Assembly: GCA_017410455.1 (NCBI GenBank)
Contig: JAFQQT010000066.1
Coordinates: 1 to 39,072 of the forward strand
Direction of reading: 5' to 3'
Length of the DNA stretch: 39,072 nt
Source of the DNA: Clostridia bacterium
GTDB lineage: Bacteria > Bacillota > Clostridia > Christensenellales > Aristaeellaceae
A model generated the notes under the pieces. That model was not told the DNA's origin and searched no databases. It worked only from the letters and a program-made list of their open reading frames with translations. Below are positions 485 to 29,292 of the stretch, one piece after another. The position numbers and the translations under genes are program-made. Each line of letters begins with the position of its first letter. The stretch's first letter is position 1.

Positions 485-692
485 TCCGGCCATCGCCGGG
501 GTCTGCGACCCGTTTCACTCCCGGCGCTGGCTACGCTCGGCGATTCCGAGGAATCGCTGTCGCTAATCGGGCTGCGCCCGATCTCGATTCCGGCCATCGC
601 CGGGGTCTGCGACCCGTTTCACTCCCGGCGCTGGCTACGCTCGGCGATTCCGAGGAATCGCTGTCGCTAATCGGGCTGCGCCCGATCTCGAT
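485..692 (+). repeat. Two tandem 104-bp three-hairpin palindromic elements
   Basis: Units at 485-588 and 589-692 are essentially identical. Each holds three hairpins: GGGTC/GACCC (499-511 in unit 1), GCGATTCC-GA-GGAATCGC (540-557) and ATCGGGC-TGC-GCCCGAT (566-582), joined by the linkers GCTGGCTACGCTCGG and TGTCGCTA. Relatives occur at about 11471-11560, 16925-17035, 29030-29116 and 29208-29292. No gene lies in 481-862; the rest of that gap holds a terminator (697-733), a small TTCTGCG/CGCAGAA inverted repeat near 763-785 and a weak promoter-like sequence (TGGTTT 792-797, TACAGT 815-820). Confidence 0.9.
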
Positions 693-696
693 ATCA

Positions 697-741
697 CAGA
701 GCCGGAGTCTGCCTGTATGGCGCTCCGGCTCTGATTGTTAT
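697..741 (+). terminator. Terminator-like hairpin after gpmI
   Basis: An 11-bp perfect stem, CAGAGCCGGAG (697-707) with CTCCGGCTCTG (723-733), has a 15-base loop and is followed by ATTGTTATG. The T-tract is weak. It lies behind gpmI and the two repeat units. Confidence 0.6.
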
Positions 742-862
742 GCGAAGTCCCCCGCTCTCACTTTCTGCGAGTCCTCACGCAGAATGCGCGCTGGTTTTTC
801 TGCCGGAAATGCTGTACAGTAAGCTCATAAAGCTTCAAATCCAATGACAGAGGAGAATCACC

Positions 863-1792
863 ATGAGCAACACCTTTTCCAGCAATCTCCGCAAGCTCCG
901 CCTCGACAGGCAGATGACCCAGGAGCAGGCCGCCGCGCAGCTGGGCGTGAGCGCCCAGGCCGTGTCCCGCTGGGAGACCAGCACCACCCTGCCCGACGTG
1001 CTGCTCCTGCCCTCAATCGCCCGGCTCTATGGCGTGCTGGTGGACGACCTGTTCCGCCCCTCCCCCAGGGGCTACAGCAACAACGCCCTGCGCCTGCTGG
1101 CGGTGTATGAGCGCACGGGCAAGCGGGAGGATTTCATCGCCGCGGCAGAGGAGTTCGACAAGCTCATTCGCTCCGGCGCCGCCACGGCGGACGACTGGCG
1201 CAGCAACGGCGTGCTCCACGAGTACATGGTCTACCACTGCATCCGCAAAGCCACGGAGTGTTACGACACGGCGATGGAAGCCTCCCGCACCGCCGATCCC
1301 GAGATGTATCACCGCATCCTCCGCCAGAAGATCCTTCTGCGCTGCCGCACCGGACAGGCTGACGCATGCATCGCCGAGCAGGAATCCACCCTGCACGCCG
1401 CCCCGGACGATGCGGACAGCTGGGTTGATCTCGCCCACGCGCAGTACACCACCGGCCGGCACGAAGCGGCCTTGCAGACCTGCACGGCCGCCCTTGAGCG
1501 CTTCCCGCAGGAGGGGCTGCTGCACCTGTACGCCGGGGACGCCTGCCGGAGCCTGCAGCGCTATGACGAGGCCTTCGCCCACTGGCAAGCCGCCGTCAGC
1601 ATCGACACGAAGTTCCTCGACGCGATGTACTCCATGGCCTTCTGCCACGAGGAGCTGGAGCAGTTCGCCCAGGCCTGCACCCTCTGGGAGGACATTGCCC
1701 GCAGGCTGGACGAGCGCGGCCTTGAGATCGAGGCCCAGTGGCCCCGGGAGATGGCGAAGAAGTGCCGCGCAAAGGCGGACAGCCTTTGCTGA
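863..1792 (+). CDS. XRE-family HTH regulator with TPR-like C-terminal part
   Basis: Probable cytoplasmic DNA-binding regulator of 309 aa. Residues about 6-65 form a Cro/C1-type HTH (LRKLRLDRQMTQEQAAAQLG, then VSAQAVSRWE, then LLLPSIARLYGV). The remaining 240 residues are helical with repeated TPR-like blocks, clearest at DSWVDLAHAQYTTGRHEAAL and LLHLYAGDACRSLQRYDEAF. The start is fixed by AGGAG at 851-855, seven bases before ATG. HTH plus TPR is the layout of peptide-responsive (RRNPP-like) regulators, but no pheromone gene is seen next to it, and many Clostridia genes of this type have no known ligand. It is 55 bases ahead of the kinase-like gene on the same strand and may be co-transcribed. 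The specific target is unknown. Confidence 0.85.
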   Translation: MSNTFSSNLRKLRLDRQMTQEQAAAQLGVSAQAVSRWETSTTLPDVLLLPSIARLYGVLVDDLFRPSPRGYSNNALRLLAVYERTGKREDFIAAAEEFDKLIRSGAATADDWRSNGVLHEYMVYHCIRKATECYDTAMEASRTADPEMYHRILRQKILLRCRTGQADACIAEQESTLHAAPDDADSWVDLAHAQYTTGRHEAALQTCTAALERFPQEGLLHLYAGDACRSLQRYDEAFAHWQAAVSIDTKFLDAMYSMAFCHEELEQFAQACTLWEDIARRLDERGLEIEAQWPREMAKKCRAKADSLC

Positions 1793-1847
1793 CATCCCCC
1801 GGCGGGCATGACCGTGCCGAGCGCACCTTCAGACAGGAGTTCTGCAT

Positions 1848-2354
1848 ATGAAGACCCTCTATTTCATCGGCGGCCCCATGGGCGTGGGCAAGACCGCCGT
1901 CAGCCGTGAGCTGCTCGCCCGGCTCCCCCGCTGCGCCATGCTCGACGGCGACTGGTGCTGGACGATGCAGCCCTTCATCGTCACCGACGAAACCAAGGCC
2001 ATGGTCACCGGCAACATCGTGCACATCCTCAGCAGCTTCCTGCACTGCAGCGAGTTTGATAACGTCGTGTTCTGCTGGGTGATGCACCAGCAGCAGATCA
2101 TCGACGGCCTGCTGGCCCGCCTGCCCATGGACGGTGTGCGCCTGGTGAACATCTCGCTGACATGCACCCCCGAGGCACTGGCTGCACGCATCCGCCGGGA
2201 CGTCGCAGCGGGCCTGCGGGATGCGGACTGCATCAATCGCGCCCTGGCCTACCTGCCACTCTACGACCACGTGCAGTCCGTCAAGGTGGATGCCACTGGC
2301 CTCCACCCCGCCGAAATCGCCGAACAAATCATTCACACAGGTGAGACCTTATGA
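1848..2354 (+). CDS. P-loop NTPase, small-molecule kinase-like
   Basis: A 168-aa cytoplasmic protein with a Walker A at the N terminus (IGGPMGVGKTAVS, residues 6-18) and a downstream DGDW, as in adenylate-kinase-fold small kinases. Length fits one P-loop domain. Substrate cannot be told from sequence. The ATG has AGGAG (1835-1839) at good spacing. Its TGA overlaps the ATG of the flippase gene (ATGA, 2351-2354), so the two are translationally coupled. Two other short P-loop kinases occur in the ABC-F operon at 7481-8095 and 9518-10252. They share only the fold and position of Walker A. Confidence 0.75.
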   Translation: MKTLYFIGGPMGVGKTAVSRELLARLPRCAMLDGDWCWTMQPFIVTDETKAMVTGNIVHILSSFLHCSEFDNVVFCWVMHQQQIIDGLLARLPMDGVRLVNISLTCTPEALAARIRRDVAAGLRDADCINRALAYLPLYDHVQSVKVDATGLHPAEIAEQIIHTGETL

Positions 2355-3790
2355 GCACCCGCAAAAACACGATCTACAACATGGCCTACCGCCTCTTCTC
2401 GATGCTGCTGCCCCTCATCACCGCGCCGTATCTGAGCCGCGTGGTGGGCACGGAGGGAGTGGGGCTGTACGGCTATGCCTGGGCCATCAGCTACACCTTT
2501 GGCCTGATCGGCCTGCTGGGCCTGGAGAACTACGGCCCCCGCGCCATCGCCCAGGCCCGGGATGACAAGTCCGCCCTGAACCGCGCTTTCTCCGGCATCT
2601 GGCAGATGCAGCTGCTGGTGGCAAGCCTGACGCTGCTGGTCTGGTGCGGGTATGTGGCCTTCGTCGCCGGGGCAGAGAAGCCCCTGGCGCTCGCCTTCAC
2701 GCTGGCCAGCATCTCCTGCCTGGTCAACGTGGACTGGTGCTTGATGGGCCTTGACCAGTTCCGGCCCATCGCCCTGCGAAACACGCTGGCAAAGCTGCTG
2801 GCGGCGGTGGCGGTGTTCGTTTTCGTCAGGGGGCCGGAGGACCTGTGGATCTACGCCTTCGCCTGGTCGGCGGCGACGCTGCTGGGCTGTGCCAGCTGCT
2901 TCCTGTCCCTGCGCGGGCAGGTGAAGTTTACCCCCGTCCCCTGGAAGGAGGCGCTGACTCACCTGAAGCCCTGCGCCATCCTCAGCATCTCCGTCATCGC
3001 CGTTTCTGTCTACCGGCAGATGGACAAGGTGATGATCGGCGCGCTCTCCGACATGCATCAGACGGGCCTGTACGAGAACGCGGAGAAGATCATCCTGTGC
3101 CTGGCGGGCTTCATCGCCGCCATCGGCACGGTGATGCTGCCCAAGATCAGCCACATGACCGCCAAAGGCCTGGTGGACGAGGTGAAGAAGCACATGGACG
3201 CCTCCATGGAGCTGGTGATGTGCATGGTCTGCGCATTGGGCTTCGGCCTGGCCGGCATCGCGCCGGAATTCGCCGTGCTCTTTTACGGCGAGGCCTTCGC
3301 CGATTCCGGGCTGCTGATGACCCTGCTGGCCTTCACGCTCCTGACCATCGGCTTTGCCAACGTCATCCGTACCCAGTGGGTGCTGCCGCAGAAGCGGGAC
3401 CACATCTTCATCAAATCCGTCCTGACCGGCGCGGCGGTGAATGTCGTGCTCAACGCGCTGCTCATCCCCTTCTTCGGGGCGAAGGGCGCAGTCGTCGCCA
3501 CCATGGCGGCGGAGCTGGCCGTACCGGTGGTGCAGTTCGTCATCCTGCGCCACGAGCTGCCCTTCCTGCGGTATGTGCGGTACGCGCTGACCTACTCGGC
3601 CATCGGCGGCGCGATGGCGCTCGTCGTGCGGCTGACGGCGCAGCTGCCCGTGGATGGCTGGGCCGGGCTGTTCCTGTGCGTGGCCGCGGGCGGCGCGACA
3701 TATCTGACGCTGTGCGCCCTGTGGTGGATGGCGACCCGCAACCGCCGCATCCTCTCCGTCCTGCGCAAATCGCCAAAGCCTGCCAAATAA
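2351..3790 (+). CDS. Oligosaccharide flippase (Wzx/MATE-like polysaccharide transporter)
   Basis: Integral membrane protein of 479 aa, rich in hydrophobic segments through its whole length (about 12-14 predicted). The N-terminal pattern (NMAYRLFSMLLPLITAPYLS, then RVVGTEGVGLYGYA) is typical of Wzx-type exporters of lipid-linked sugars, which move repeat units across the cytoplasmic membrane for capsule or wall polysaccharide. No glycosyltransferases or polymerase are beside it, so it is an orphan flippase here. Start overlaps the stop of the kinase-like gene by four bases. A short inverted repeat GTTCC/GGAAC follows, but no convincing terminator is seen before the lipoprotein gene. Confidence 0.85.
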   Translation: MSTRKNTIYNMAYRLFSMLLPLITAPYLSRVVGTEGVGLYGYAWAISYTFGLIGLLGLENYGPRAIAQARDDKSALNRAFSGIWQMQLLVASLTLLVWCGYVAFVAGAEKPLALAFTLASISCLVNVDWCLMGLDQFRPIALRNTLAKLLAAVAVFVFVRGPEDLWIYAFAWSAATLLGCASCFLSLRGQVKFTPVPWKEALTHLKPCAILSISVIAVSVYRQMDKVMIGALSDMHQTGLYENAEKIILCLAGFIAAIGTVMLPKISHMTAKGLVDEVKKHMDASMELVMCMVCALGFGLAGIAPEFAVLFYGEAFADSGLLMTLLAFTLLTIGFANVIRTQWVLPQKRDHIFIKSVLTGAAVNVVLNALLIPFFGAKGAVVATMAAELAVPVVQFVILRHELPFLRYVRYALTYSAIGGAMALVVRLTAQLPVDGWAGLFLCVAAGGATYLTLCALWWMATRNRRILSVLRKSPKPAK

Positions 3791-3856
3791 TCCTCCCCCG
3801 ACCCGCGCATGATACCCCTGAAAAGTTCCGGCCCACGGAACCCATCGGGAGGTATC

Positions 3857-9525: not shown

Positions 9526-10252
9526 GTTCTTGACATAGCGTCGCCGACAGGGATGCCCGCGCCGCCGCCCAGTCCCGGTGGGCGTCGCGGAGCGTCACCG
9601 CCCGCAGGGGGAGCGACGCGAGGATGCGCTCCTCCCGCCGCTGCCTCTCCTGCAGGCAGGCAATATACCCCTCAAAGCCCGCCGCGCCGATGGAACGCCC
9701 GTAGCCGCCCTCCGCGTGGTACGGGATGACCGCCTCCAGCCAGCCGGGGCGCTCCTGTGCAGTCCGCTGCACCGTCTGGGCAACATCATCATTGTGCAGA
9801 TACACCACCACCGGCTCCATGGGCGCGATGATCTCCGCAATGGCCAGGATGTGGGCGGCGGAGGCTTCCTCGGGCATGCCGAAGCGCATCATCGTTTCGC
9901 ACATCGGGTTTTGCAGCAGCACGCAGTTGAAGACATACGCCGTGTCCGGATCGGCCTCCCGGACGAACCGCCGCCACTTGTCCAGCATCAGCGGGGCCTC
10001 CGTTTCCCATGGGAGACCATCGTAAATCTTGTATGGCAGCATCTCCGCCAGCTGCTGCGGCGGCACGGTGTTCAGCGGGACGATGTGCCCGTCCACCAGG
10101 GCGTGGAACTCATAATCCGCCGGGTGGTCGCCCGTGCCCTCGTCCACCAGCTTCACGCGCTTCCCCTGCATTTTCAGCACGTCCGCCAGATAGGCCGCCG
10201 TGCTGCTCTTGCCCGAACAGGGCAGCCCCTCGACGATATACAGTCTGCTCAT
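9518..10252 (-). CDS. P-loop NTPase, small-molecule kinase-like
   Basis: 244 aa with Walker A EGLPCSGKSSTA at residues 7-18, followed by KLVDEGTGDHP. The later part is alpha/beta with no further motif that names a substrate. It begins with ATG overlapping the TGA of the ABC-F gene (ATGA), so it is translationally coupled to a ribosome-protection type ATPase. Kinase-like P-loop genes in such positions can encode drug phosphotransferases, but nothing here proves it. The extra upstream codons in the frame lie within the ABC-F gene and lack a ribosome site. Confidence 0.75.
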   Translation of the reverse strand: MSRLYIVEGLPCSGKSSTAAYLADVLKMQGKRVKLVDEGTGDHPADYEFHALVDGHIVPLNTVPPQQLAEMLPYKIYDGLPWETEAPLMLDKWRRFVREADPDTAYVFNCVLLQNPMCETMMRFGMPEEASAAHILAIAEIIAPMEPVVVYLHNDDVAQTVQRTAQERPGWLEAVIPYHAEGGYGRSIGAAGFEGYIACLQERQRREERILASLPLRAVTLRDAHRDWAAARASLSATLCQERP

Positions 10253-11829
10253 GCGCCGCCTCCCAGGTCGATCACGCGGGTACACACCCTTTGCAGGAAC
10301 ACCGCGTCATGCTCCACCAGCAGGAGCGTGGGCGCGTATTCCAGCAGCAGCCCCTCCAGCTGCACGCGGGAGAGTACGTCGATGTAGTTCATCGGCTCGT
10401 CCCAGACGTAGAGGTGGGCCGGGATGCACAGGCTCCGGGCCAGCAGGAGCTTCTTCTTCTGCCCCTGGCTCATGTGGTGGATGGGCCGGTCAAAAAGGTC
10501 GCGGGTGAAGTCCATGTTGCGCAGGATCGCCTTGAACAACGTCTCGTCCACACCGCTTTTGCGGATAAATTCGCTGACAGAGCCCCGCAGGTCGTCCGTC
10601 TGCTGGGGGACATAGGAAACAATGAGGTTCGGCGCAATGCTGATGCTGCCCGTCAGCGAGCCGCCCGCGCCCACCAGCGCCTTGAGTACGCTGGATTTCC
10701 CGCAGCCGTTGGGGCCGCTGAGGGCAATGCGCTCCCCTCGCCGCAGGGTGAAGCTGATGCCCTCGCAGACGGCGCGGCCATCGTATGCCACGCGCCCATC
10801 GGCGACGGAGATCAGCACGTCCTTGGGGTGCTGCAGCACCGTCAGCTTCAGCTCGCCCACCTTTTCCACATTGTGCAGCAGGCCGCGCTTTTCCTCGATG
10901 GCGCGCTCCTTCCGGCGGACGGCGTTGGTGGCCTTCTTCATCACAGAGGCCGCCTTCGCACCCACGAAGCCACGATCCACCACGGCGGACACGCTCTCCG
11001 GCACATGGAACTTGCCGCGTTCCGCCTTCGCCGACCATTCGGCGGACCGCCGGGCGGACTCCTCCAAATGGCGGATGTCGCGTCTGAGTGCCTCGTTACG
11101 GCCCTGCTCGTATTCGTTCTGCTGGTTCAGGCGGGCCTCCCAGGTGTCGTAATTACCCTGCATGACCCACACATCGCTGCGGTTGAGGGACAGCACATGG
11201 TCGATGCAGCGGTTGAGGAAAGCGCGGTCGTGGCTGACCAGGAGGAAGCCGTCCTTGCGGCGGAGGTAGTCCGCCACCAGCTGGCGGCCGCGGGTATCCA
11301 GGTGGTTCGTCGGCTCGTCGATGAGGGGGTAGGCGTCCTCCCGGGCAAAGAGGGCGGCCAGCAGCACCTTGGTCTGCTCGCCCTTGGAAAGGGTGCAGAA
11401 GGGCCGGTCGAGGACGGAGTCGTCCACGTCCAGCTGGTTCAGCTCGCACACCAGCTGCCACTCCTCAACTCGGCCATCACCGCTGTAAGCGGCGCTGGCT
11501 ACGCTCGGCGATTGCAAGCAATCGCTGTCGCTAATCGGGCTGAAGCCCGATCTCGGGCCATCGTTGGCAGCCTGCAGCATCACCTCGCGGGTATTGGCCG
11601 ACGCATCCGCCACGGGGTACGGGAAGTACACCGGCGTGAGGGGCATGTCGATGCGGCCCTGGGGCTTCATTTCGCCCATCAGCAGCCGCAGCAGGGTGGT
11701 TTTGCCCTTGCCGTTGCGGCCGATCAGTCCCAGCCGCCAGGACGTATCGAAATTGAAGGACACATGCTCGAACACCGGCGTGTAGGAGCCGTCATAGGTG
11801 AAGGAAAGGTCACGGATGGATACCTGCAT
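10249..11829 (-). CDS. ABC-F ATPase, Lsa/Vga-like (ribosome protection type), with in-frame palindromic element
   Basis: 526-aa cytoplasmic protein with two ABC domains and no membrane segment. NBD1: Walker A GRNGKGKTT (about 37-45), signature LSKGEQTK (147-154), Walker B LIDEPTNHLD (169-178). A charged linker follows, then NBD2 with Walker A GPNGCGKSS, signature MSQGQKKK and WDEPMNYIDV, the last being typical of Lsa-type antibiotic-resistance ABC-F proteins that displace lincosamides, pleuromutilins or streptogramin A from the ribosome. Start is the ATG eight bases after AGGAGG; a nearer ATG is too close. Residues about 91-117 are encoded by a palindromic repeat element and look inserted between VMLQAAND and the helix VEEWQLVCEL. 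It heads the five-gene unit and has its own sigma-A promoter and about 240-base leader. Drug specificity is an inference. Confidence 0.88.
   Translation of the reverse strand: MQVSIRDLSFTYDGSYTPVFEHVSFNFDTSWRLGLIGRNGKGKTTLLRLLMGEMKPQGRIDMPLTPVYFPYPVADASANTREVMLQAANDGPRSGFSPISDSDCLQSPSVASAAYSGDGRVEEWQLVCELNQLDVDDSVLDRPFCTLSKGEQTKVLLAALFAREDAYPLIDEPTNHLDTRGRQLVADYLRRKDGFLLVSHDRAFLNRCIDHVLSLNRSDVWVMQGNYDTWEARLNQQNEYEQGRNEALRRDIRHLEESARRSAEWSAKAERGKFHVPESVSAVVDRGFVGAKAASVMKKATNAVRRKERAIEEKRGLLHNVEKVGELKLTVLQHPKDVLISVADGRVAYDGRAVCEGISFTLRRGERIALSGPNGCGKSSVLKALVGAGGSLTGSISIAPNLIVSYVPQQTDDLRGSVSEFIRKSGVDETLFKAILRNMDFTRDLFDRPIHHMSQGQKKKLLLARSLCIPAHLYVWDEPMNYIDVLSRVQLEGLLLEYAPTLLLVEHDAVFLQRVCTRVIDLGGGA
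11471..11560 (+). repeat. Three-hairpin palindromic element inside the ABC-F gene
   Basis: Hairpins CCGCT-GTA-AGCGG (11480-11492), GCGATTGC-AA-GCAATCGC (11508-11525) and ATCGGGCT-GA-AGCCCGAT (11534-11551) with the same linkers as the copies at 485-692. It lies antisense to the gene's reading direction yet keeps the frame open; the part 11479-11559 equals 27 codons. Confidence 0.88.
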
Positions 11830-12069
11830 AATCATCGCCTCCTGTTGATCTGGCTCCCTCCCCGAGGGAGCTGTCAGCAAAGCTGACTGAGGGAGTGAAG
11901 ACGGCAGCGATTCGGTTTTTGGCACGCAAAAAGGAGAGCCTGACACGAATATGGGTGTGACTGCCGCAGCAAACAAACCGTCACGAAAACGGCGTATATG
12001 CTCCCTGATGGGTTCATTGCAGCAGCTTACATCCGCATATCCGGGTCAGCCCTCCTTCATCATCACATT
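11830..12069 (-). promoter_or_regulatory. Long leader of the ABC-F operon with possible three-codon upstream ORF
   Basis: About 240 bases lie between the predicted transcription start and the ABC-F ATG, with no gene. On the - strand AAGGAGG (12057-12051) is followed 12 bases later by ATG CGG ATG TAA (12038-12027), a possible Met-Arg-Met uORF. Further down are CTGCTGCA/TGCGGCAG, TTTTTG/CAAAAA and the CTCCCTC/GAGGGAG repeat next to the ribosome site. Many ARE ABC-F genes are controlled by drug-sensing attenuation at short uORFs; that it applies here is inference. Confidence 0.5.
11852..11898. repeat. Palindromic repeat (CTCCCTC type) in ABC-F leader
   Basis: GCTCCCTC and GAGGGAGC form one hairpin and GTCAGC-AAA-GCTGAC a second; the outer GAGGGAG (about 11889-11895) can compete for the first stem. 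This two-hairpin form resembles dispersed intergenic repeats of gut Clostridia. It ends about ten bases from the ABC-F ribosome site. Confidence 0.7.
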
Positions 12070-12075: not shown

Positions 12076-12104
12076 ATTGTAGCACGGCGTGTCCGGCTTG
12101 TCAA
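12076..12104 (-). promoter_or_regulatory. Sigma-A promoter of the ABC-F operon
   Basis: On the - strand TTGACA (12104-12099), a 17-base spacer and TACAAT (12081-12076). Near-consensus. Confidence 0.85.
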
Positions 12105-12145
12105 GGGGCGGCCTGTGTCCTGTCAGGCGAATGCCGACGCAGAAA

Positions 12146-12169
12146 GGGAGGGGGAACGTTCCCCCTCCC
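12146..12169 (-). terminator. Perfect 24-bp palindrome after the exported-protein gene
   Basis: GGGAGGGGGAAC and its exact complement abut with no loop, then TTTCTGC on the - strand. It lies seven bases behind the stop at 12176 and is the likely terminator of that gene. On the + strand it faces the ABC-F promoter from behind. Confidence 0.7.
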
Positions 12170-12175
12170 GGCTGG

Positions 12176-14191
12176 TCATTGTCCGTCGACCTTCTTCACC
12201 TGGCGGTGCTCCGGCACGCGCACGTTGCCCTCCGCATCCACCTGCACATCGTAGTAGTTGACCTCCGTCACCACCTCGCCGTCATCCGTGACGACAAGGG
12301 TGAGCATGCGCACCGTTGCGCGCCCCTCCTGCAGGCCGGTGAAGGCAATATACGTTCCCGTTCCGTCCGCGTGCTCAAGCGCCACGCCCGCGCCCGGGAC
12401 ATCGGCGCTCTCCCCGACGCAGATGACCTCGTCACCCTCCACCACGCCGATGCGCCAGGTCTTCCCGCCGGCTCCGTTCGTCACCACGATTTCGCCGGTC
12501 ACGGGCAATTCCGCCGCCTCGCGCATCACCCAGTCGAACACCTCGCCGGTCAGCGCGTCCCAGCTGGCCTTCGCCTGCGCGACCCAGTCGTTCAGTTCCG
12601 CATTGCTCATGCCGCTGAGGGAAACCGCCTCGTGGCTGCACAGGCTGCCCTGCGGCGCACAGGTGTGCACCTCGCTGATCAGGGAGAGGAGCCGCTCGCC
12701 CTCCACCGAGACGCTGAAGCGCTCCGTGCCCGTCAGGTCCACGCCGTCGGTGGCGTAATCCATGCCGCACTGCATGTCCGTCAGGAGCCGGTCGCCCTCG
12801 CTGTACTGGAAGGCCAGGCCGATGGACACATCGTTCTCCGCGATGGCGACATTCAGCAGCAAATCCTGCCGGCTCTCCTCCACGTCGCCCCACTCCGCAT
12901 TGGCGGGCACGATGACGCTCAGCAGCGCCAGCGCCTCGGTCATGCCGGGGATGCTGCGGTTGGTCGCCGCACCCAGCACCACGCGGAGCACCTCCGTGCG
13001 CGCGCCTTCCGGATCGATATCGCCAACGGTCACCTCATATCCCCGGGCGTACGTGCCGTGGGGCTCCGTGACGGTGCAAATAACGTAGGCTTCCAGCATG
13101 TCGTCGCCGAAGAGCACCTCGTGGGTCACCGCGCCCTCCGCAGAAAGGCGGTTGTAGAGGCAGAAGAACACCGGCGCCAGCTCGTCACCGCTGGAATCCA
13201 CAACTTCCGCTTCCAGGCGCACCAGCGTACCCGTGCCGTCCTCATAGCCCCGCAGACCGATGGTGAAGAACGGGCTCATCTCCGCAGCCGTCAGTTCCTC
13301 GATGAGCGGGTTGATGAAGGCGTCGTTGAAGCTGACATTGCTTCCCGCCGCGTTGACGCTGCTGTAATCCATCAGCGCCGCCAGCTGCTCTCCCAGGGCG
13401 GGGTTGTCGCGGATGTCGGTGAGCCCGGCCACGGCCAGGTCGCGCACGTCGTCCTGCGTCACATACAGCGTCCACACCTGCGCGGCGGGGTCGCAGCCCT
13501 CCGGCTGGGCGTCGGGATCCGTCCCGCCGCCGGGGATGCGCTCATACTCCCGCCGCCCGAGGATGGCCTCCACCGCCGCGTCCCATGCGGTCGTTTCAAA
13601 GTCCGCCACGCCGGAGAGATCCTTCCCCAGCATCGACATCGGCCACGGCATGCCGCCGCCCAGCAGCATCATGTTGACCATCATCGCGTCGTCGCGGGTG
13701 ATCAGCCCGCCGGACTGCATCGCGCCGATCAGGCGCACGAGGGTGCCGGGCTGCGCCAGCTCCTCCGCGGTGAACTGCACGGCAGCGGGCGCAAGGCTGG
13801 TATCCAGCACATAGCCGCCCTCCTGTGCCGCCAGGGCGAAGGACAGCCAGTCCTCCCCGTCCAGCAGGATGCTCACCGCCTCGCCGTCCGCCCGGCTGCG
13901 GTTGACGATGGTCACCCGGGTCATGAACTCCGCCAGCAGCTGATCCATGTGGGGATCGCCGTTCAGCGCCCCGGTCTCAATCCTCACCGTGCGCACGACC
14001 TCCCGCCCGGCCTCCACGGCCGCCCGATCCGCAGAGAGTCGCGCGGCCTCCTCCGCCGTCAGCACGCCCCAGTCCGCCAGGAAGGACCAGTCGCTCGCCG
14101 CCCACATCGCGTCAAACACGGGATCCTCTGCCACAGATGCGCCCGGCACCAGCAGCAGCAGCGCCAGCAGGATGGAAAGCAGCTTTTTCAT
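12176..14191 (-). CDS. Large exported protein of unknown function
   Basis: 671 aa. The N-terminal signal peptide (MKKLLSILLALLLLVPGASVA, likely cleaved before EDPVF) has no lipobox Cys, so the protein is probably released or wall-associated. The rest is acidic, Ala/Glu/Asp/Val rich, with no membrane anchor, LPXTG or recognised enzymatic motif. The last 130 residues look beta-rich (EIVVTNGAGGKTWRIGVVEG, then TVRMLTLVVTDDGEVVTEVN). Start chosen at the ATG with GAGGAGG eight bases upstream; an earlier ATG in frame has no ribosome site. It has its own sigma-A promoter (14229-14257) and a palindromic terminator, so it is monocistronic and divergent from dnaE. Confidence 0.7.
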   Translation of the reverse strand: MKKLLSILLALLLLVPGASVAEDPVFDAMWAASDWSFLADWGVLTAEEAARLSADRAAVEAGREVVRTVRIETGALNGDPHMDQLLAEFMTRVTIVNRSRADGEAVSILLDGEDWLSFALAAQEGGYVLDTSLAPAAVQFTAEELAQPGTLVRLIGAMQSGGLITRDDAMMVNMMLLGGGMPWPMSMLGKDLSGVADFETTAWDAAVEAILGRREYERIPGGGTDPDAQPEGCDPAAQVWTLYVTQDDVRDLAVAGLTDIRDNPALGEQLAALMDYSSVNAAGSNVSFNDAFINPLIEELTAAEMSPFFTIGLRGYEDGTGTLVRLEAEVVDSSGDELAPVFFCLYNRLSAEGAVTHEVLFGDDMLEAYVICTVTEPHGTYARGYEVTVGDIDPEGARTEVLRVVLGAATNRSIPGMTEALALLSVIVPANAEWGDVEESRQDLLLNVAIAENDVSIGLAFQYSEGDRLLTDMQCGMDYATDGVDLTGTERFSVSVEGERLLSLISEVHTCAPQGSLCSHEAVSLSGMSNAELNDWVAQAKASWDALTGEVFDWVMREAAELPVTGEIVVTNGAGGKTWRIGVVEGDEVICVGESADVPGAGVALEHADGTGTYIAFTGLQEGRATVRMLTLVVTDDGEVVTEVNYYDVQVDAEGNVRVPEHRQVKKVDGQ

Positions 14192-14228
14192 ACAGGGCAC
14201 CTCCTCAGTCTTATCGTTTTGCAACATC

Positions 14229-14257
14229 AATATATCACACAACAGTTCATCTGTAAA
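14229..14257 (-). promoter_or_regulatory. Sigma-A promoter of the exported-protein gene
   Basis: TTTACA (14257-14252), 17-base spacer, TATATT (14234-14229) on the - strand, about 38 bases ahead of the ATG. Confidence 0.7.
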
Positions 14258-14391
14258 GGGTCTTCCGGATTTTGTTACAACTTTTCCGCTCCCTTCATCT
14301 GTATATACGCACCAGAACCCCCAAACGTTTCACCGCCTGCAGATTTTTTCCGGTCACCGCCGCCGTTCCCCTGTTCGACCTGCGCAAGTTG

Positions 14392-14400
14392 TGGTATAAT
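14392..14400 (+). promoter_or_regulatory. Extended -10 promoter of dnaE operon
   Basis: TGGTATAAT gives a consensus -10 (14395-14400) with a TGn extension; no good -35 is seen at 16-18 bases. It lies about 50 bases upstream of the dnaE ATG. Confidence 0.7.
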
Positions 14401-14449
14401 GTCAGCACAACAAACATCATTCCGAATTCGGCACACGGAGGTGTCCCCC

Positions 14450-17400
14450 ATGTCCTTCACCCATCTCCACCTGCACACCGAGTACTCCCTGCTGGACGGC
14501 GCATGCCGCATCCCGAAGCTGGTTCAGCGCGTCAAGGCGCTGGGCATGGATTCGTGTGCCATCACTGACCACGGCGTGATGTACGGCTGCATTGATTTCT
14601 ATCAGGCGATGAAGGCCGAGGGCATCAAGCCCGTCATCGGCTGCGAGGTCTACGTCTGCCGCGACCGCACGGACAAGACGACCGCCCAGCGCGAATACAG
14701 CCATCTCATCCTTCTGTGCGAGAACAACCGGGGCTACGAGAACCTGATGCACCTGGTCAGCGAGGGCTTCCTCACCGGCTATTACTACAAGCCCCGCATC
14801 GACTATGACCTCATCCGCCGGCACAGCGAGGGCCTCATCTGCCTGTCCGCCTGCCTGTCCGGCGATTTGCCCAAGCTCCTGCTGGACGAGCGGCACGAGG
14901 AGGCAGTTGCCTACGTCCGCGAAATGCAGGACATCTTCGGCAAGGAGAATTTCTTCATCGAGATCATGGATCACGGCATCCGCGAGGAGAAGCTGGTGCT
15001 GCCCCGCCTCATCGCCCTGGCGCGGGAGATGGACGTGAAGCTGGTGGCGACCAACGACTGCCACTATCTGGAGGAAAAGGACGCCGACGCCCAGGAAGTG
15101 CTCATGTGCATCCAGACCGGCAAAACCCTGGAAGACGAGCACCGCATGAAGATGGAGACCCGCCAGCTCTACGTCAAGTCCGAGGAGGAGATGCGCCAGC
15201 TGTTCCGCGCCTGCCCGGACGCGGTGGACAACACCACCCTCATTGCCGGACGCTGCAACGTGGAATTCGAGTTTGGCGTGACCCGCCTGCCCGCCTACCC
15301 TGTGGAGACGGGCGAGACCCCGCTGGAGATGCTCACCCGCCTGTGCCTTGCGGGTATCCGCCGCCTGTATCCCGACGCGAAGGCCCCCGAGGGCGATTTC
15401 CCCGGCGACGAGCCCTACACCCGCCTCTCCTACGAGCTGGGCGTGATCTCCGGCATGGGCTATGTGGATTACTTCCTCATCGTCTGGGACTTCATCAATT
15501 ATGCCAAACAGAACGGCATCATGGTCGGCCCGGGCCGCGGCTCCGGCGCAGGCTCCATCGTGGCGTACTCCCTGGGCATCACGATGCTCGACCCACTGAA
15601 GTACCAGCTGCTGTTCGAGCGCTTCCTGAACCCGGAGCGCGTGTCCATGCCCGATATCGACGTGGACTTCTGCTACGAGCGCCGCCAGGAGGTCATCGAC
15701 TACGTGGCCCGCAAATACGGCGCGGATCACGTCAGCCAGATCATCACCTTCGGCACCATGGCCGCCAAGGGCGTGGTGCGCGACGTGGGCCGCGTGCTGG
15801 GCATGTCCTACGCGGAGACGGACGCGGTGGCGAAGGCCATCCCCTTCGACCTGGGCATGACGCTGGAGAAGGCGCTGAAGCTCTCCCCCATGCTCAAAAG
15901 CATGTACGAGTCGGACGAGAGCGTCACCCGCCTCATCGACACCGCCATGACCCTGGAGGGCATGCCCCGCCATGCCTCCACCCACGCAGCGGGTGTGCTG
16001 ATCACCGGCAAGCCCGTGGTGGAGTTCGTGCCCCTGCAGCGCAATGACGAGGTCATCACCACGCAATATCCCATGGGCACCATCGAGCAGCTGGGTCTGC
16101 TGAAGATGGACTTCCTGGGCCTGCGGACGCTCACCGTCATCCGGGACGCGCTGGACATGATGCGCGAAATGGGGGTAGACATGACCCCCGAGGAGATCCC
16201 CATGGACGACGCGGCGGTGTACGAGATGATCTCCGCCGGCGATACCGACGGCGTGTTCCAGCTGGAAGGCGGCGGCATGCGCACCTTCCTGACCAACATG
16301 AAGCCCGGTAACTTCGAGGACATCATCGCCGCCATTTCCCTCTACCGCCCCGGCCCCATGGAATCCATTCCCCGCTACATCGAGGGCAAGCACAACCCTG
16401 CCTCCGTACATTATGAAACGGAGAAATTGAGGCCCATCCTGGACGTCACCTACGGCTGCATGGTGTACCAGGAGCAGGTGATGCAGATCGTGCGCGACCT
16501 GGCGGGCTATTCCTACGGCCGCAGCGACCTGGTGCGCCGCGCGATGGCGAAGAAGAAGCACAAGATCATGATGCAGGAGCGCGAGTACTTCGTCCACGGC
16601 AAGGTGAACGAGGACGGCTCCATCGACGTGCCCGGATGCGTGCGCAACGGCGTGCCGGAGGCCGTCGCCAACAAGATCTACGACGACATGACCGCCTTCG
16701 CGTCCTACGCGTTCAATAAATCCCACGCGGCGGCTTACGCCGTGGTCGCCGTGCAGACCGGCTGGCTCAAGAAGCACCATCCCGTGCCCTTCATGGCCGC
16801 CATCCTCAACTCCGTCTACGGCAACTCCGGCAAGATCGCCGGGTACATCCAGTACTGCCGCAGCCAGGGCATTCAGGTGCTGCCGCCGGACGTGAACCGC
16901 TCCGGCTGGAAGTTCACCGTTGTCTCGGCCAGCCCCGCTAAAAGCGGTGCTGGCTACGCGGCGTCTTCGCAAGCGAATACACCGCTAGTCGGCGCTGACA
17001 CGCCTCCCTCGGGCCGCGCACCCGCCACGGGCGGGCTGTGCATCCTCTTCGGCCTGGGCGCGGTGAAGGGTGTGGGCGCGGGCGCGGTGGACGCCATCAT
17101 GCGCGAGCGCGAGAACGGCCCCTTCAAGGACATCTTCGACTTCTGCTCCCGCATCGATACCGCCGAATGCAACAAGCGCGTGGTGGAAAGCCTCATCAAG
17201 GCCGGCGCCTTCGACTATACCGGCGCGAACCGCCCGCAGATGCTGGCTGTGTTCGAGTCCGCCATGGACGCGGCCATCAGCCGGCGCAAATCCAACGTGG
17301 ACGGACAGCTTTCCCTGTTCGACATGGCCTTCGGCGATTCCGCTCCCGTCATCGAAGAAACCCGTGAGCTGCCCCGCCTACCAGACTTCCCCTCCCGGCA

Positions 17401-18190
17401 GAAGCTGGCCATGGAGAAGGAGATTTCCGGCGTGTACATCACCGGTCACCCCCTGGACGATTACCGCGAGCTGCTGCGCAAATTCCCCTTCACCACCGCC
17501 CAGCTGGAGGGTCTGGAGGAGCGGGATGACCATGGCCTGGAAATGGACGGCATGTTTGTGGAGATGGCCGGTATCCTCACCGAGGTCAAGGGCAAGGCCA
17601 CCAAAAAGGGCGCCTACATGGGCTTCATCACCCTGGAAGACCTGACCGGCCAGATCGAGTGCCTGGTGTTTCCCAAGGTGTATGAGCGCTATCAGGGCAT
17701 GATGGCTCCGGACGACCTGGTCGTCCTCAGCGGCAAGCTCTCCATCCGCGAGGAGGAGGCCCCCAAGCTCCTGGTGGACCGCCTCACCCCCCTGGAAAGC
17801 TGGGAGGAGGAGAGCAAAAACGCCGCGAGCCACCCGTCCCGCATCGCCGTCCGTAACCGTGTCCCCGCTTCCGCGAGGGCCACTGACCAGATTCCAAATC
17901 CCCCCGTTCCTCACCGCCAGCCCGCCGCACCGCAGAAAACCGACGCGCAGCTGGCCAGCGAGGCCCCGCGCAAGCTCTTCATCCAGCTGGAGCGCCCCCG
18001 CATGGACGAGGCTGTCCATCACCTCTCCCTCCACCCGGGCAGCATCCCCGTGTACCTGCACGTCCCGGCAGAAAAGCTGACCTTCCTGCTGCCGCGCATC
18101 CAGTGGTGCGACGGAAGCGAGGGCTGCCTGTCCCGGCTTGTGAAGGCATTCGGCGAGGCCAATGTCAAAATCGTGGAAAAGAAGGCATAA
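14450..18190 (+). CDS. dnaE: DNA polymerase III alpha subunit (DnaE), with in-frame palindromic element
   Basis: Replicative or lesion-tolerant C-family polymerase, 1246 aa. N-terminal PHP domain (THLHLHTEYSLLDGACR, residues 4-20), palm aspartates in MPDIDVDF (about 400-407) and KMDFLGLRTL (about 552), fingers with YQEQVMQI and AFNKSHAAAYA, then an OB-fold (ITLEDLTGQIECLVFP, about 1062-1077) and a C-terminal tail. Start is ATG with GGAGG at 14437-14441; the frame is open far upstream only because of the antisense of the neighbour. Residues 826-862 come from a 111-bp palindromic element placed just before the conserved LFGLGAVKGVG block, where relatives have a short turn. A Pro/Ala-rich linker at about 1125-1165 also looks expanded. 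GtrA follows after one base. Confidence 0.95.
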   Translation: MSFTHLHLHTEYSLLDGACRIPKLVQRVKALGMDSCAITDHGVMYGCIDFYQAMKAEGIKPVIGCEVYVCRDRTDKTTAQREYSHLILLCENNRGYENLMHLVSEGFLTGYYYKPRIDYDLIRRHSEGLICLSACLSGDLPKLLLDERHEEAVAYVREMQDIFGKENFFIEIMDHGIREEKLVLPRLIALAREMDVKLVATNDCHYLEEKDADAQEVLMCIQTGKTLEDEHRMKMETRQLYVKSEEEMRQLFRACPDAVDNTTLIAGRCNVEFEFGVTRLPAYPVETGETPLEMLTRLCLAGIRRLYPDAKAPEGDFPGDEPYTRLSYELGVISGMGYVDYFLIVWDFINYAKQNGIMVGPGRGSGAGSIVAYSLGITMLDPLKYQLLFERFLNPERVSMPDIDVDFCYERRQEVIDYVARKYGADHVSQIITFGTMAAKGVVRDVGRVLGMSYAETDAVAKAIPFDLGMTLEKALKLSPMLKSMYESDESVTRLIDTAMTLEGMPRHASTHAAGVLITGKPVVEFVPLQRNDEVITTQYPMGTIEQLGLLKMDFLGLRTLTVIRDALDMMREMGVDMTPEEIPMDDAAVYEMISAGDTDGVFQLEGGGMRTFLTNMKPGNFEDIIAAISLYRPGPMESIPRYIEGKHNPASVHYETEKLRPILDVTYGCMVYQEQVMQIVRDLAGYSYGRSDLVRRAMAKKKHKIMMQEREYFVHGKVNEDGSIDVPGCVRNGVPEAVANKIYDDMTAFASYAFNKSHAAAYAVVAVQTGWLKKHHPVPFMAAILNSVYGNSGKIAGYIQYCRSQGIQVLPPDVNRSGWKFTVVSASPAKSGAGYAASSQANTPLVGADTPPSGRAPATGGLCILFGLGAVKGVGAGAVDAIMRERENGPFKDIFDFCSRIDTAECNKRVVESLIKAGAFDYTGANRPQMLAVFESAMDAAISRRKSNVDGQLSLFDMAFGDSAPVIEETRELPRLPDFPSRQKLAMEKEISGVYITGHPLDDYRELLRKFPFTTAQLEGLEERDDHGLEMDGMFVEMAGILTEVKGKATKKGAYMGFITLEDLTGQIECLVFPKVYERYQGMMAPDDLVVLSGKLSIREEEAPKLLVDRLTPLESWEEESKNAASHPSRIAVRNRVPASARATDQIPNPPVPHRQPAAPQKTDAQLASEAPRKLFIQLERPRMDEAVHHLSLHPGSIPVYLHVPAEKLTFLLPRIQWCDGSEGCLSRLVKAFGEANVKIVEKKA
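16925..17035 (+). repeat. Diverged three-hairpin palindromic element inside dnaE
   Basis: CCGCT-AAA-AGCGG (16935-16947), GTCTTCGC-AA-GCGAATAC (16963-16980, one mismatch) and GGCG...CGCC (16991-17004), plus CCCGCC-ACG-GGCGGG at 17021-17035. The linker GCTGGCTACGC and the later CCGCTAGTCGG match the other copies. Length is 111 bp, 37 codons, no stop in the dnaE frame. Confidence 0.8.
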
Positions 18191-26560: not shown

Positions 26561-26604
26561 GGAGGCTGTGCATCAAATTTCACCAACTCGACCCATAATG
26601 AAAA

Positions 26605-27294: not shown

Positions 27295-28313
27295 GGCAAC
27301 ACCTCCAGCAGTCCCCGCAGACCTTCCACCCGCACATCCGGGCGTTCCGCTTCCCTGCGCACGCTGTGCCACACCGCCGGCCCCTGGGGCAGCCACACGG
27401 TGCGCATGCCCACGGTCTTTGCGGGGGCGATGTCGTTGTCCAGGCGGTCGCCGATCATGACAGCCTCCGCCGCCGCACAGCCCGCCCGTTTCAGCGCAAG
27501 CCGGAAAATGGCCGGGTCCGGCTTCGCCACGCCCGCCTCCGCCGAGGCGATGACCAGGTCGATGTACTCAAGCAGCCCCCAGGCACGGAGCCTGTCCGCC
27601 GTGCCCGCCGCCTGGTTGGCGATCACGCCGATGCGGTAGCCGCGCCCGCGCAGGGCCCGTAGCACCTCCGCCGCTTCCGGGTAGGGGTGCTCATCCTCGT
27701 GATGCCACGGCGTTTTCGGCAGTCCAAAGAAGGCCGCAGCTTCCAGGTCGCCGCGCCTGTTCTGCCGGGCGAACGCCTCACGCTTGCGCTGGAACTGCTC
27801 GTAGCTTACGCCCGTCCCGGCGATCATCTCGCGGATGCGCCGGTCATAGGCGGCGGACTCGTCCACCAGCGTGGAGCCCACGTCGAAGAAGAGCCACCGC
27901 AGGGGCGCGTCCTCCCAAGTCAGCAGCACCCGGGCGCAAGTCAGCGTAGCCATCAGCGCCTCGTTCCCGATCAGATCAATGCTGATGACGCCGCTTTTCT
28001 CGCTCAGGTCGTAGATATAGCCGCTGTCCTGCTCGGGCAGCAGGGTCGGCAGCCACGCCTCCTGCGGCAGCTGCGTCGGCGGGCGGGACTCAATGATGTC
28101 GCCCTTCGCATCCCGCATCTCGCAGGCCGACAGCTCCACGCCCGTCAGGCAAGCGCCCAAGAAGCGCAGCGTCACCTCCGGCACGCTGAAGCCCGCGCCC
28201 ACCGGCGTTACGCCCCGCAGTGCCATCACCAGGTCGCCATCCTCCCAGCGGACGGCTTTCAGCCAGGCATCGTGATAGTGGAACTGCTCCAGCTGATCTG
28301 ACTCACAGCGCAT
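27291..28313 (-). CDS. HAD-family hydrolase fused to an N-terminal domain of unknown function
   Basis: 340 aa. Residues 1-140 form a beta-rich domain (starting QLEQFHYHDAWLKAVRWEDG) resembling small immunity-like or DUF modules with an FHD start; its role is unknown. Residues about 145-335 are a HAD hydrolase: motif I FFDVGSTLVDES, motif II VIANQ, motif III AKPDPAIF, motif IV MIGDRLDNDI. In motif I the second Asp (acid/base) is Gly, as in a known DVGxTL subgroup, which may slow or change the hydrolysis. A good promoter (28348-28376) supports the ATG at 28313 rather than the longer open frame, which runs into a tRNA gene. Coupled to the membrane-protein gene. Confidence 0.8.
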   Translation of the reverse strand: MRCESDQLEQFHYHDAWLKAVRWEDGDLVMALRGVTPVGAGFSVPEVTLRFLGACLTGVELSACEMRDAKGDIIESRPPTQLPQEAWLPTLLPEQDSGYIYDLSEKSGVISIDLIGNEALMATLTCARVLLTWEDAPLRWLFFDVGSTLVDESAAYDRRIREMIAGTGVSYEQFQRKREAFARQNRRGDLEAAAFFGLPKTPWHHEDEHPYPEAAEVLRALRGRGYRIGVIANQAAGTADRLRAWGLLEYIDLVIASAEAGVAKPDPAIFRLALKRAGCAAAEAVMIGDRLDNDIAPAKTVGMRTVWLPQGPAVWHSVRREAERPDVRVEGLRGLLEVLP

Positions 28314-28347
28314 TTCCCTGCCCCCCCTTCCGGTGAATTTCCCTCTC

Positions 28348-28376
28348 ATGATACCACGCCGCCCTGCCTTCCGCAA
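28348..28376 (-). promoter_or_regulatory. Promoter of the HAD fusion gene
   Basis: TTGCGG (28376-28371), 17-base spacer, TATCAT (28353-28348) with TGG before the -10, on the - strand. It excludes in-frame ATGs further upstream. Confidence 0.6.
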
Positions 28377-28390
28377 GGGAGCTGCGTTGC

Positions 28391-28426
28391 AAAAGCACAA
28401 AAATACGCCACCCATCCGGATGGCGT
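28391..28426 (-). terminator. Terminator of the tRNA operon
   Basis: On the - strand ACGCCA...TGGCGT (28426-28405) is followed by ATTTTTGTGCTTTT. It lies five bases after the last tRNA. Confidence 0.85.
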
Positions 28427-28430
28427 TGAG

Positions 28431-28503
28431 AGCGGTAGACGAGGCTCGGACTCGCGACCTCCACCTTGGCAAGGTGGCGCTCTACCAACTGAGCTACTAC
28501 CGC
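28431..28503 (-). tRNA. tRNA-Gly (GCC)
   Basis: Anticodon loop TTGCCAA within stem CCACC/GGTGG, acceptor GCGGTAG/CTACCGC, T discriminator. 3' CCA is not encoded. Identical in its 72-base body to the copy at 28640-28712. Confidence 0.97.
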
Positions 28504-28559
28504 ATCTGTGAGGGGCTTGCGCCCTTCTATGGAAAGAAGGCGAACCTTCGGGGTTTTGC

Positions 28560-28633
<74 letters not shown>

Positions 28634-28639
28634 AAAAAG

Positions 28640-28712
28640 AGCGGTAGACGAGGCTCGGACTCGCGACCTCCACCTTGGCAAGGTGGCGCTCTACCAACTG
28701 AGCTACTACCGC
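28640..28712 (-). tRNA. tRNA-Gly (GCC), second copy
   Basis: Same sequence as the tRNA at 28431-28503, lying on the other side of tRNA-Gly(TCC). A local duplication. Confidence 0.97.
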
Positions 28713-28732
28713 ATGTTGGGTGTGGGGAAAAG

Positions 28733-28811
28733 TGCGGGCGAAGAGACTCGAACTCTTACACCGAAGTACCAGATCCTAAGTCTGGCGCGTCTGCCATTCC
28801 GCCACGCCCGC
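28733..28811 (-). tRNA. tRNA-Leu (TAG)
   Basis: Anticodon loop CTTAGGA in stem CCAGA/TCTGG, acceptor GCGGGCG/CGCCCGC, A discriminator and a class II variable arm (TACTTCGGTG region), as expected for leucine. Confidence 0.95.
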
Positions 28812-28844
28812 ACGTGCAAGACCTGAGCCGAAGGCAGATGGGAA

Positions 28845-28917
28845 TGACCCATTGGAGATTCGAACTCCAGACACCTTGATTAAAAGTCAAGTGCTCTGCC
28901 GACTGAGCTAATGGGTC
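28845..28917 (-). tRNA. tRNA-Lys (TTT)
   Basis: Anticodon loop CTTTTAA in stem CTTGA/TCAAG, acceptor GACCCAT/ATGGGTC, A discriminator. Confidence 0.97.
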
Positions 28918-28923
28918 ATACAG

Positions 28924-28995
28924 CTGGGGTGGCAGGGCTCGAACCTGCGAATGCGGGAGTCAAAGTCCCGTGCCTTACCACTTGGCTACACCCCA
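28924..28995 (-). tRNA. tRNA-Gln (TTG)
   Basis: Anticodon loop CTTTGAC in stem CGGGA/TCCCG. Acceptor TGGGGTG/CACCCCA with G discriminator, the unusual U1-A72 pair typical of tRNA-Gln. Confidence 0.97.
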
Positions 28996-29029
28996 TCGCA
29001 GGTTGGCACTGCCGCGTGTGCAGCAGACC

Positions 29030-29116
29030 GATTCCGGCCATCCCGCGCAATGCGCGTGCTGGCTACGCTCGGCAATTGCAAGCAATTGCTGTCGCTAGTC
29101 AGGCTTCGCCCGACCT
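29030..29116 (+). repeat. Three-hairpin palindromic element in tRNA-His/Gln spacer
   Basis: CGCGC-AAT-GCGCG (29044-29056), GCAATTGC-AA-GCAATTGC (29072-29089) and GTCAGGC-TTC-GCCCGAC (29098-29114, one A-C mismatch). The left border GATTCCGGCCATC and both linkers match the 485-692 copies. Confidence 0.88.
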
Positions 29117-29133
29117 ACAGGAAGAAAAAGAAG

Positions 29134-29206
29134 GGAGAATAGTGGGGTTCGAACCCACGACATCCAGAGCCACAATCTGGCGCTCTACCACTGAACTATA
29201 TCCTCC
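29134..29206 (-). tRNA. tRNA-His (GTG)
   Basis: Anticodon loop TTGTGGC in stem CCAGA/TCTGG. The extra 5' G (G-1) opposite discriminator C73 is encoded, as usual in bacteria; acceptor GAGGATA/TATTCTC has one G-T pair. Confidence 0.96.
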
Positions 29207-29207
29207 A

Positions 29208-29292
29208 CATTCGGCCTGTATCTGCCTGGGGCAGCTTCAGGCTTCGCACAACGATTTTCCAAATCGTCGCGCTCGTCGGGCTACGCCCGACC
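29208..29292 (+). repeat. Diverged three-hairpin palindromic element in tRNA-Arg/His spacer
   Basis: CTGCC-TGG-GGCAG (29222-29234), ACGATTT-TCC-AAATCGT (29251-29267) and GTCGGGC-TAC-GCCCGAC (29275-29291). Linker sequence is diverged, but order, spacing and the ATTCGGCC left border fit the family. Confidence 0.75.

Follow-up and report, generated by a model that had tools for sequence, protein, structure and literature searches.

A three-hairpin palindromic repeat family, nearly restricted to one genus of gut Clostridia, that keeps its pairing while its sequence changes

Six short palindromic copies lie in a 39,072-nucleotide contig of a Clostridia bacterium (assembly GCA_017410455.1, contig JAFQQT010000066.1; contig 55 of a 3.30-Mb metagenome-assembled genome (MAG) of 93 contigs and 92% completeness; the whole stretch is called the window below), and a first-pass annotation read each of them as three successive hairpins whose arms change together from copy to copy. 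The locus raises the question of whether such copies form a family and, if so, what keeps the pairing while the letters drift. The copies belong to a real family, new but of a known kind and almost confined to one genus; it is probably a non-autonomous mobile palindromic element of the general type of REP, Rickettsia palindromic elements (RPE) and BOX, and we infer that it moves as folded single-stranded DNA. Added here to the first-pass annotation are empty sites in sibling genomes, a bias of the insertion site, DNA-like pairing and weaker pairing in copies that share a site.

Covariance model R1 (trained on 11 copies, of which the window supplied five) recovered all six copies in the window (E 1.2e-17 to 8.1e-11; next match E 0.49; Table 1). 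Copies 1 and 2 form a direct repeat of 104 bp with 100% identity and, as an exact tandem duplication, were counted as one observation, not two. The search of the host genome and related MAGs that the first-pass annotation had proposed gave many matches in both; in the host MAG, 32 were obtained with R1 at E ≤ 0.1, 29 of them at E ≤ 2.3e-6 (a lower bound, 150 of 3390 candidates having been scored), so the element is not confined to the six copies first seen; model R2, built from 132 copies, gave 30 matches at E ≤ 1.8e-6. The sequence GCTGGCTACGCTCGG is exact in 4 of the 6 copies; as a bare 15-mer at ≤3 mismatches it gave 7 matches against 3.1 expected (7 was reached in 2 of 100 shuffles), which is only mildly above chance, and the evidence therefore rests on structure and on genome-wide recurrence.

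Distribution of the element: sibling species of the genus, 14 of 17 (1 to at least 73 copies each, zero in three; 73 candidates scored per genome, so that copy counts are lower bounds), which makes 15 of 18 genus genomes with the own one included; other genera of the family, 2 of 18 genomes, one copy each; rest of the order, 0 of 24 genomes; further genomes of the class, 0 of 290 (15 candidates scored per genome). A scan of named genomes gave 40 stretches: the sample names of 21 refer to ruminants (goat, sheep, roe deer, water deer), a further 15 come from SIG355/SIG357 Clostridiales MAGs (no host in the title), and 4 are others; one of these four, a Betaproteobacteria contig (L063) matched by pattern, was not confirmed by the covariance model. 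One copy (29035–29119) searched for in phage and plasmid carriers gave no match, and the exact element pattern gave none in viral contigs. The element is thus restricted almost wholly to one genus of gut Clostridia represented by MAGs. The first-pass annotation did not recognise it as a named family, and no curated Rfam family matched: the gathering score was reached in the window by tRNAs alone (8 tRNAs), and four loci searched at E ≤ 1 gave tRNAs and one weak YrlA match over tRNA genes, none at the element. The 13-mer GCTGGCTACGCTC occurred, within the accessible portion of open-access full text, solely in a paper on eEF1A in neurodevelopment, and no title among the open-access papers listed for related repeats dealt with such an element in Clostridia. 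For the analyses below, copies were fetched best-scoring first, not randomly, and 160 distinct ones were left after removal of identical rows; L-numbers denote fetched loci and G-numbers genus genomes.

The unit is about 84–101 bp long, mostly 84–90 (~88 bp), and reads on the strand shown: TCGGCCATC, hairpin 1, GCTGGCTACGC, hairpin 2, GCTA, hairpin 3 (GTCGGGC..GCCCGAC), CTC. Hairpin 1 has a near-invariant base stem GGCCA/TGGCT, separated by mismatches from an inner stem that is hypervariable (both anchors are present in 144 of 160 copies, which hold 116 distinct inserts); the first-pass view that this hairpin is almost unrelated between copies is correct for the inner part and overlooked the base. 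The constant 5-bp stem with a 3-base loop assigned to it was an error, as neither stem nor loop has a fixed length and a longer insert is present in the copies that start at 486 and 590. The joint changes of the two arms of hairpin 2 were seen as listed, with one mismatch in the dnaE copy (by eye). At least 100 of the 126 distinct copies carry a minus-strand GTAG tetranucleotide at the foot of hairpin 1 (counted by A at this column); it overlaps the closing pairs of that stem, and its palindrome is one of three per unit. At the right end CT is frequent (C 0.88, T 0.83 over 136 rows), the end having been placed partly by those letters. Loop composition on the read strand (184 distinct sequences) was: hairpin 1, A 0.43 and T 0.17; hairpin 2, A 0.76 and T 0.07; hairpin 3, A 0.33 and T 0.38; the A-richness of loops 1 and 2, not shared by loop 3, indicates that one strand is preferred. 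Head-to-tail arrays reach nine units, and one locus has a unit that shares hairpins 2 and 3, but not hairpin 1, with its neighbour, suggesting module exchange. In several genomes a composite repeat was observed, in which a larger hairpin holds the element in its loop (arms GTTTTCGGC ... GCCGAAAAC, with variants; L047, L057, L058, L135, L136, L138, L141, L162, L239, L245).

That structure is kept while sequence drifts, as first proposed, was borne out by covariation far above shuffled and slid controls. Of the 132 rows, 126 are distinct; in these, standard pairs occupy 93.9% of the 3740 cells (78.2 ± 0.4% after shuffling); double-changed cells number 494 (123 ± 8 in shuffles) and occur in 28 of 30 pairs; slid registers are 18–40% paired. 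Because this alignment had been fitted to the structure, two further checks were made. In an alignment-free comparison of the arms of hairpin 1 (114 of the 116 distinct inserts), 6.52 Watson–Crick pairs per nine positions were obtained, against 4.18 ± 0.10 with arms swapped between copies. Mutual information with average product correction, calculated on the same alignment and blind to the pairs, placed predicted pairs at all of the top 11 couplings; the next one, in hairpin 1, links mismatch A-C (54 of 126) to mismatch C-T (43), the columns concerned being Watson–Crick in 9 of 126 rows (G-C 6, A-T 3), and a lower-ranked coupling at the base of hairpin 2 links A-A (90) to T-C (19), again of 126.

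The kind of pairing was examined over 27 pairs, with pairs 3-56, 64-105 and 62-106 set aside here and in the comparisons of random and same-site copies: 3369 cells; 3218 Watson–Crick, 25 G-T, 58 A-C, 68 other. The G-T share is 0.7%, compared with 6.2% in tRNAs from the same loci (30 tRNAs, 40 G-T of 643 predicted pairs; a rough control, in which mismatches are uncounted and the tRNAs are far less variable than the element). Among double changes, 312 were of transversion type and 174 of transition type (same 184 sequences), a transversion-rich spectrum that differs from stepwise RNA compensation via G-U. The rarity of G-T together with the mostly transversion-type double changes makes the constraint look like one on DNA rather than RNA; the evidence for maintenance of hairpin pairing at the level of DNA is good.

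Copies occupying the same site in different species were then set against other copies. Sixteen same-site comparisons (hand-listed from 82 flank-matching pairs and the dnaE pair; L010, L095 and L021 used more than once; three, of the L021 group, without any change) gave 43 changed pairs, 24 one-sided (56%) and 19 double, or 24 and 13 without L107/L149, which are possibly independent insertions. One-sided changes made up 29% in random copy pairs overall, 26% at similar distance and 33% when every pair of the rows entering the same-site comparison was taken; Fisher p = 7e-5 against the 26% set is a guide only, as the cells are not independent. A one-sided excess in place is expected if structure is tested at movement and less later; pairing seems to be enforced during movement and to relax in place, and the evidence linking hairpin pairing to movement is suggestive. 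The pair L107 and L149 was considered as a case of rapid in-place hairpin replacement and rejected: the flanks are 97–98% identical but conserved coding sequence, and the adjoining non-coding stretch differs.

Flanks of 12 own-genome copies were joined and compared with the 18 genus genomes; 11 sites were aligned. At 10 of these the element is missing from one sibling or more; the sites in dnaE, uvrC, queA and the FGAM-synthase gene are among them. Several of the empty-site alignments are blurred by flank divergence, and exact insertion borders are not claimed. The queA copy is present in G016, and a degenerate uvrC copy in G002. Of the window copies, the site of copy 3 is empty in G010, and the dnaE site of copy 4 is empty in G010 and G017 and occupied in G002; the position of copy 5 is also occupied in G011 and G016 and that of copy 6 in G011, so that these two look like old insertions. 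The eleventh site (L015) holds a solo hairpin 1 in G009 and a hairpin-3 remnant in G010, which indicates that loss also occurs. The differences in presence would mostly reflect gain.

In 124 left flanks, information rises sharply at −9 (0.54 bits, G 3%; 0.11 bits at −10). The tract from −9 to −5 is pyrimidine-rich: 0.91 in copies adjacent to a Shine–Dalgarno (SD) sequence (n = 43) and 0.71 in copies without it (n = 71), background 0.50–0.52; these 114 flanks were meant to be non-tandem, and two L105 rows among the 71 are tandem joints. The left end adjoins an SD sequence with an open reading frame (ORF) in 41 of 159 copies and the right end in 5, related copies not being independent; the pyrimidine preference can explain this adjacency without selection for function. 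As to target duplication, 19 of 103 single copies share flank words of ≥5 nt (11.2 ± 3.0 expected; reached in 2 of 500 shuffles; rows reduced from 154 of 160 to 136 with distinct left flanks and then to 103 singles), and an all-offset test was marginal (109 flanks; best z 4.0, permutation 95% level 3.8). A miniature inverted-repeat transposable element of a DDE insertion sequence would show terminal inverted repeats and a target site duplication; here the excess of flank duplication is small or marginal, and the outer ends, by eye only, share few letters.

Among 192 entries, which include some copies fetched twice, 25 lie in ORFs of coding-like third-position GC content (GC3) whose frame remains open; the orientation is antisense in 15 and sense in 10, and a recurrent single frame was seen by eye in 12 of the 15 and 9 of the 10. 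Seven of ten ORFs scanned match Pfam (L008, L009 and L147 match none), and NCBIfam names among the element-bearing ORFs are DnaE, ABC-F ATPase, FGAM synthase, QueA and UvrC. In the window, copy 3 lies in an open ABC-F frame on the minus strand (10249–11976; NF000355, 425 bits), and copy 4 in a DnaE protein (NF005298, 1637 bits; HHH_6 at aa 1594–1717). In-frame insertion into conserved genes with the frame left open is the behaviour of RPE, and the first-pass suggestion of a REP/BIME- or RPE-like element is supported in this respect. In the dnaE ORF itself (12089–18190, 2033 aa open), DnaE homology begins at about residue 788, and the first ~780 codons are open upstream without a family match.

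These observations can be put together as follows. The element would move as folded single-stranded DNA and be recognised by the shape of its hairpins, fixed mismatches and A-rich loops included, rather than by stem sequence. It would insert in one orientation, about four bases 3' of a pyrimidine tract; IS200/IS605 elements show oriented insertion 3' of a motif. The right end (hairpin 3, then CTC) resembles the target, which would explain the head-to-tail arrays, and CTCC is the complement of the SD core, hence copies would often come to lie beside start codons of opposite-strand genes. Insertions into ORFs would survive where the frame stays open. The transposase would act in trans; the leading candidate, put forward as a tentative guess, is a Y1 (HUH) enzyme of TnpA-REP type, with whose biochemistry the tag resembling that of REPs, the mismatches and the CT border agree. 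A bolder version is rather doubtful: a three-hairpin single-strand transposon with machinery of its own, in which shape and covarying mismatches, not stem sequence, carry identity and the complement of the ribosome-binding site guides insertion, systematically threading copies into mRNA leaders.

An enzyme was sought in the 18 genus genomes: PF01797 (Y1 transposase), 6 genomes; 165-aa RAYT-like protein query, 5 genomes at E ≤ 0.01; NF047646, 7 genomes at E ≤ 0.001, with no match exceeding the curated cut-off. RAYT-like genes are near full length in three (G000, G006, G017), while G010 has pieces and G012 weak fragments of such genes; G002 holds an IS200-type PF01797 match containing a stop. 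A RAYT with the element adjoining it, as a mobiliser, was rejected on these data. The following points weigh against single-strand movement as set out above. No mobilising gene was found; the two genomes richest in copies, G016 (a MAG 84% complete) and G002 (88%), gave no RAYT, no element was detected at E ≤ 1 in 22 loci around the PF01797, RAYT-protein and NF047646 matches, and the GTAG repeat that the RAYT genes do carry is another one, of type CCGTAGGGGCGACCATTGGTCGCCC. As loss occurs, absence is not proof of later gain, and target duplication is not consistent in the flank-word and all-offset tests. Double changes are found in place too (19 of the 43), for which relaxation does not account, in a same-site comparison that is small, hand-listed and made of non-independent cells, and in which some copies may be independent insertions. 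Finally, A-C exceeds G-T by 58 to 25; on the opposite strand A-C would be wobble, and the excess could mean that wobble is tolerated in an antisense transcript and that part of the constraint acts on RNA.

The alternative that survives best is that the element is a REP/BIME proper, a GTAG-tagged REP family moved by the RAYT of these genomes. The minus-strand GTAG, the presence of RAYT-like genes in three genomes, the stem-internal mismatches and the right-end CT all suit it, the last two being used by TnpA-REP (PMC8266576). This reading is nevertheless unlikely, given the 22 loci free of the element, the distinct repeat of the RAYT genes, the highest-copy genomes in which RAYT was not found, and a unit built of three different hairpins and not of inverted REPs. 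The CCGTAGGGGCGACCATTGGTCGCCC-type repeat was itself observed translated within the RAYT-like protein in L167, L168 and L172, with a further copy beside the gene in L168 and L172.

Somewhat less probable again is mutational palindrome repair, in which template switching between hairpin arms, a mechanism described in PMC8794818, rewrites both arms at once, so that selection on structure is not needed. Low wobble and the many transversion-type double changes fit such single-event rewriting, as do the double changes among same-site copies. Equal action on same-site copies would be expected, yet one-sided changes are commoner there than between other copies; the strand asymmetry of loops 1 and 2 speaks against inter-strand switching but would be compatible with intra-strand switching, and the covarying mismatches are left unexplained.

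An RNA element, in which hairpins are kept for a function in mRNA leaders (stability, attenuation, translation) and the antisense strand is the functional RNA, is less likely still. It would account for the adjacency of the left end to SD sequences, for the A-C excess, and for the predominance of antisense orientation between co-directional predicted genes (57 against 22; gene calls based on GC3). Wobble is, however, about eight times rarer than in tRNAs, pairing is less well kept in same-site copies, the pyrimidine bias exists also without an SD sequence and can explain the orientation, and copies occur inside ORFs and in a tRNA cluster as well. The contrast between same-site and other copies and the lack of wobble point to movement rather than host function as what maintains the hairpins. 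Chance similarity or an assembly artefact, to which the near-chance 15-mer and the many G002 copies near contig ends might lend something, can be dismissed for practical purposes, as the genome-wide searches already refute it (32 own-genome matches), with copies in separately assembled MAGs, empty sites and the class control of 0 of 290.

Table 1. Coordinates of element copies, their parts and adjoining features in the window.
Feature	Position	Strand	Details
Element copy 1	486..586	+	R1 84.4 bits, E 3.4e-16; tandem unit, 104-bp period
Independent phosphoglycerate mutase gene, 3' end	4-480		ORF directly upstream of copy 1; truncated by window start
Element copy 2	590..690	+	R1 84.4 bits; second tandem unit, identical to copy 1
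Element copy 3	11470..11555	+	R1 89.8 bits; within ABC-F ATPase ORF, antisense, frame open
Pyrimidine tract CTCCT	11461..11465	+	−9 to −5 of copy 3; also in the unoccupied site
Element copy 4	16925..17008	+	R1 58.6 bits; in-frame insertion in DNA polymerase III alpha, HHH_6 domain
Element copy 5	29034..29118	+	R1 91.4 bits; between tRNA-Gln and tRNA-His genes
Hairpin 1 of copy 5	29036..29064	+	outer stem GGCCA/TGGCT, mismatches, variable inner stem-loop; from fold and family pair counts
GTAG tetranucleotide	29063..29066	-	REP-like tag overlapping hairpin 1 base of copy 5
Hairpin 2 of copy 5	29067..29095	+	outer pairs GC..GC, GCAATTGC-AA-GCAATTGC; from fold and pair counts
Hairpin 3 of copy 5	29098..29114	+	GTCAGGC-TTC-GCCCGAC, one mismatch, then CT-containing right end; from fold and pair counts
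tRNA-His	29133-29205		5' end overlapped by pyrimidine tract of copy 6 (29202-29206)
Element copy 6	29211..29295	+	R1 64.0 bits; variant core CAGGCTTCGC; between tRNA-His and tRNA-Arg

Further features were also noted. The truncated ORF upstream of copy 1 matched TIGR01307 at E 1.1e-39, under the curated cut-off. In the cluster of eight tRNAs, two tRNA-Gly(gcc) genes (28430–28503 and 28639–28712) lie inside an identical 77-bp repeat. A 71–72 bp palindromic repeat, of a family distinct from the element, is present at 36536–36897 as five tandem copies (GTCGCCCAGGGCGAC, then TTCCCCTCAAGGGGA). The right flank of L033 holds a separate repeat of ~165 bp (96–98% identical; G000 contigs 27, 30, 86 and 87), beside one copy of the element.

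The family extends REP/RPE-like mobile palindromes to a genus of Clostridia, with up to at least 73 copies per genome, and provides a data set on which a long-standing question can be tested, namely whether the hairpin pairing of such repeats is kept for the host, as RNA, or for movement, as single-strand DNA. Should the pyrimidine bias reflect a genuine preference for the target, the gathering of such small repeats at ribosome-binding sites would have a mechanical reason.

Among known systems, GTAG REP/BIME repeats and REPtrons have in common with the element short palindromes with GTAG at one foot, stem mismatches and CT near the border (PMC3733652, PMC8266576), as well as a high and variable copy number, clusters and occasional copies in repair and replication genes, dnaE of R. 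conorii included (PMC3733652). The E. coli TnpA-REP needs the stem-internal mismatches and cleaves at CT (PMC8266576). REP/BIME are defined by an unpaired GTAG at the end of a 20–40 bp palindrome, whereas the GTAG of the element overlaps closing stem pairs; the element consists of three different hairpins in a ~88-bp unit, with stems that are hypervariable within one genome. In a REPtron the RAYT is flanked by the repeat; no RAYT was found beside the element (22 loci). The 2013 survey listed GTAG repeats in Proteobacteria, Cyanobacteria, Chloroflexi and the Planctomycetes–Verrucomicrobia–Chlamydiae group (PMC3733652); the host of the element belongs to the Clostridia. IS200/IS605 are likewise single-strand elements recognised by hairpins, with cleavage sites chosen by short motifs (PMC8266576), whereas the element is without an internal transposase gene and its target is a loose pyrimidine tract ~4 nt away. 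RPE share the length of ~100 bp (105–146 bp in RPE), the folding and the in-frame position in conserved proteins; they are long stem-loops with terminal inverted repeats, and by this description are set apart from three separate hairpins (PMC2229807). Pneumococcal BOX shares modular hairpins, tandem growth, insertion into transcribed regions and frames open on both strands; growth in BOX is by repetition of the middle module, whereas in the element whole three-hairpin units are repeated (PMC3049150).

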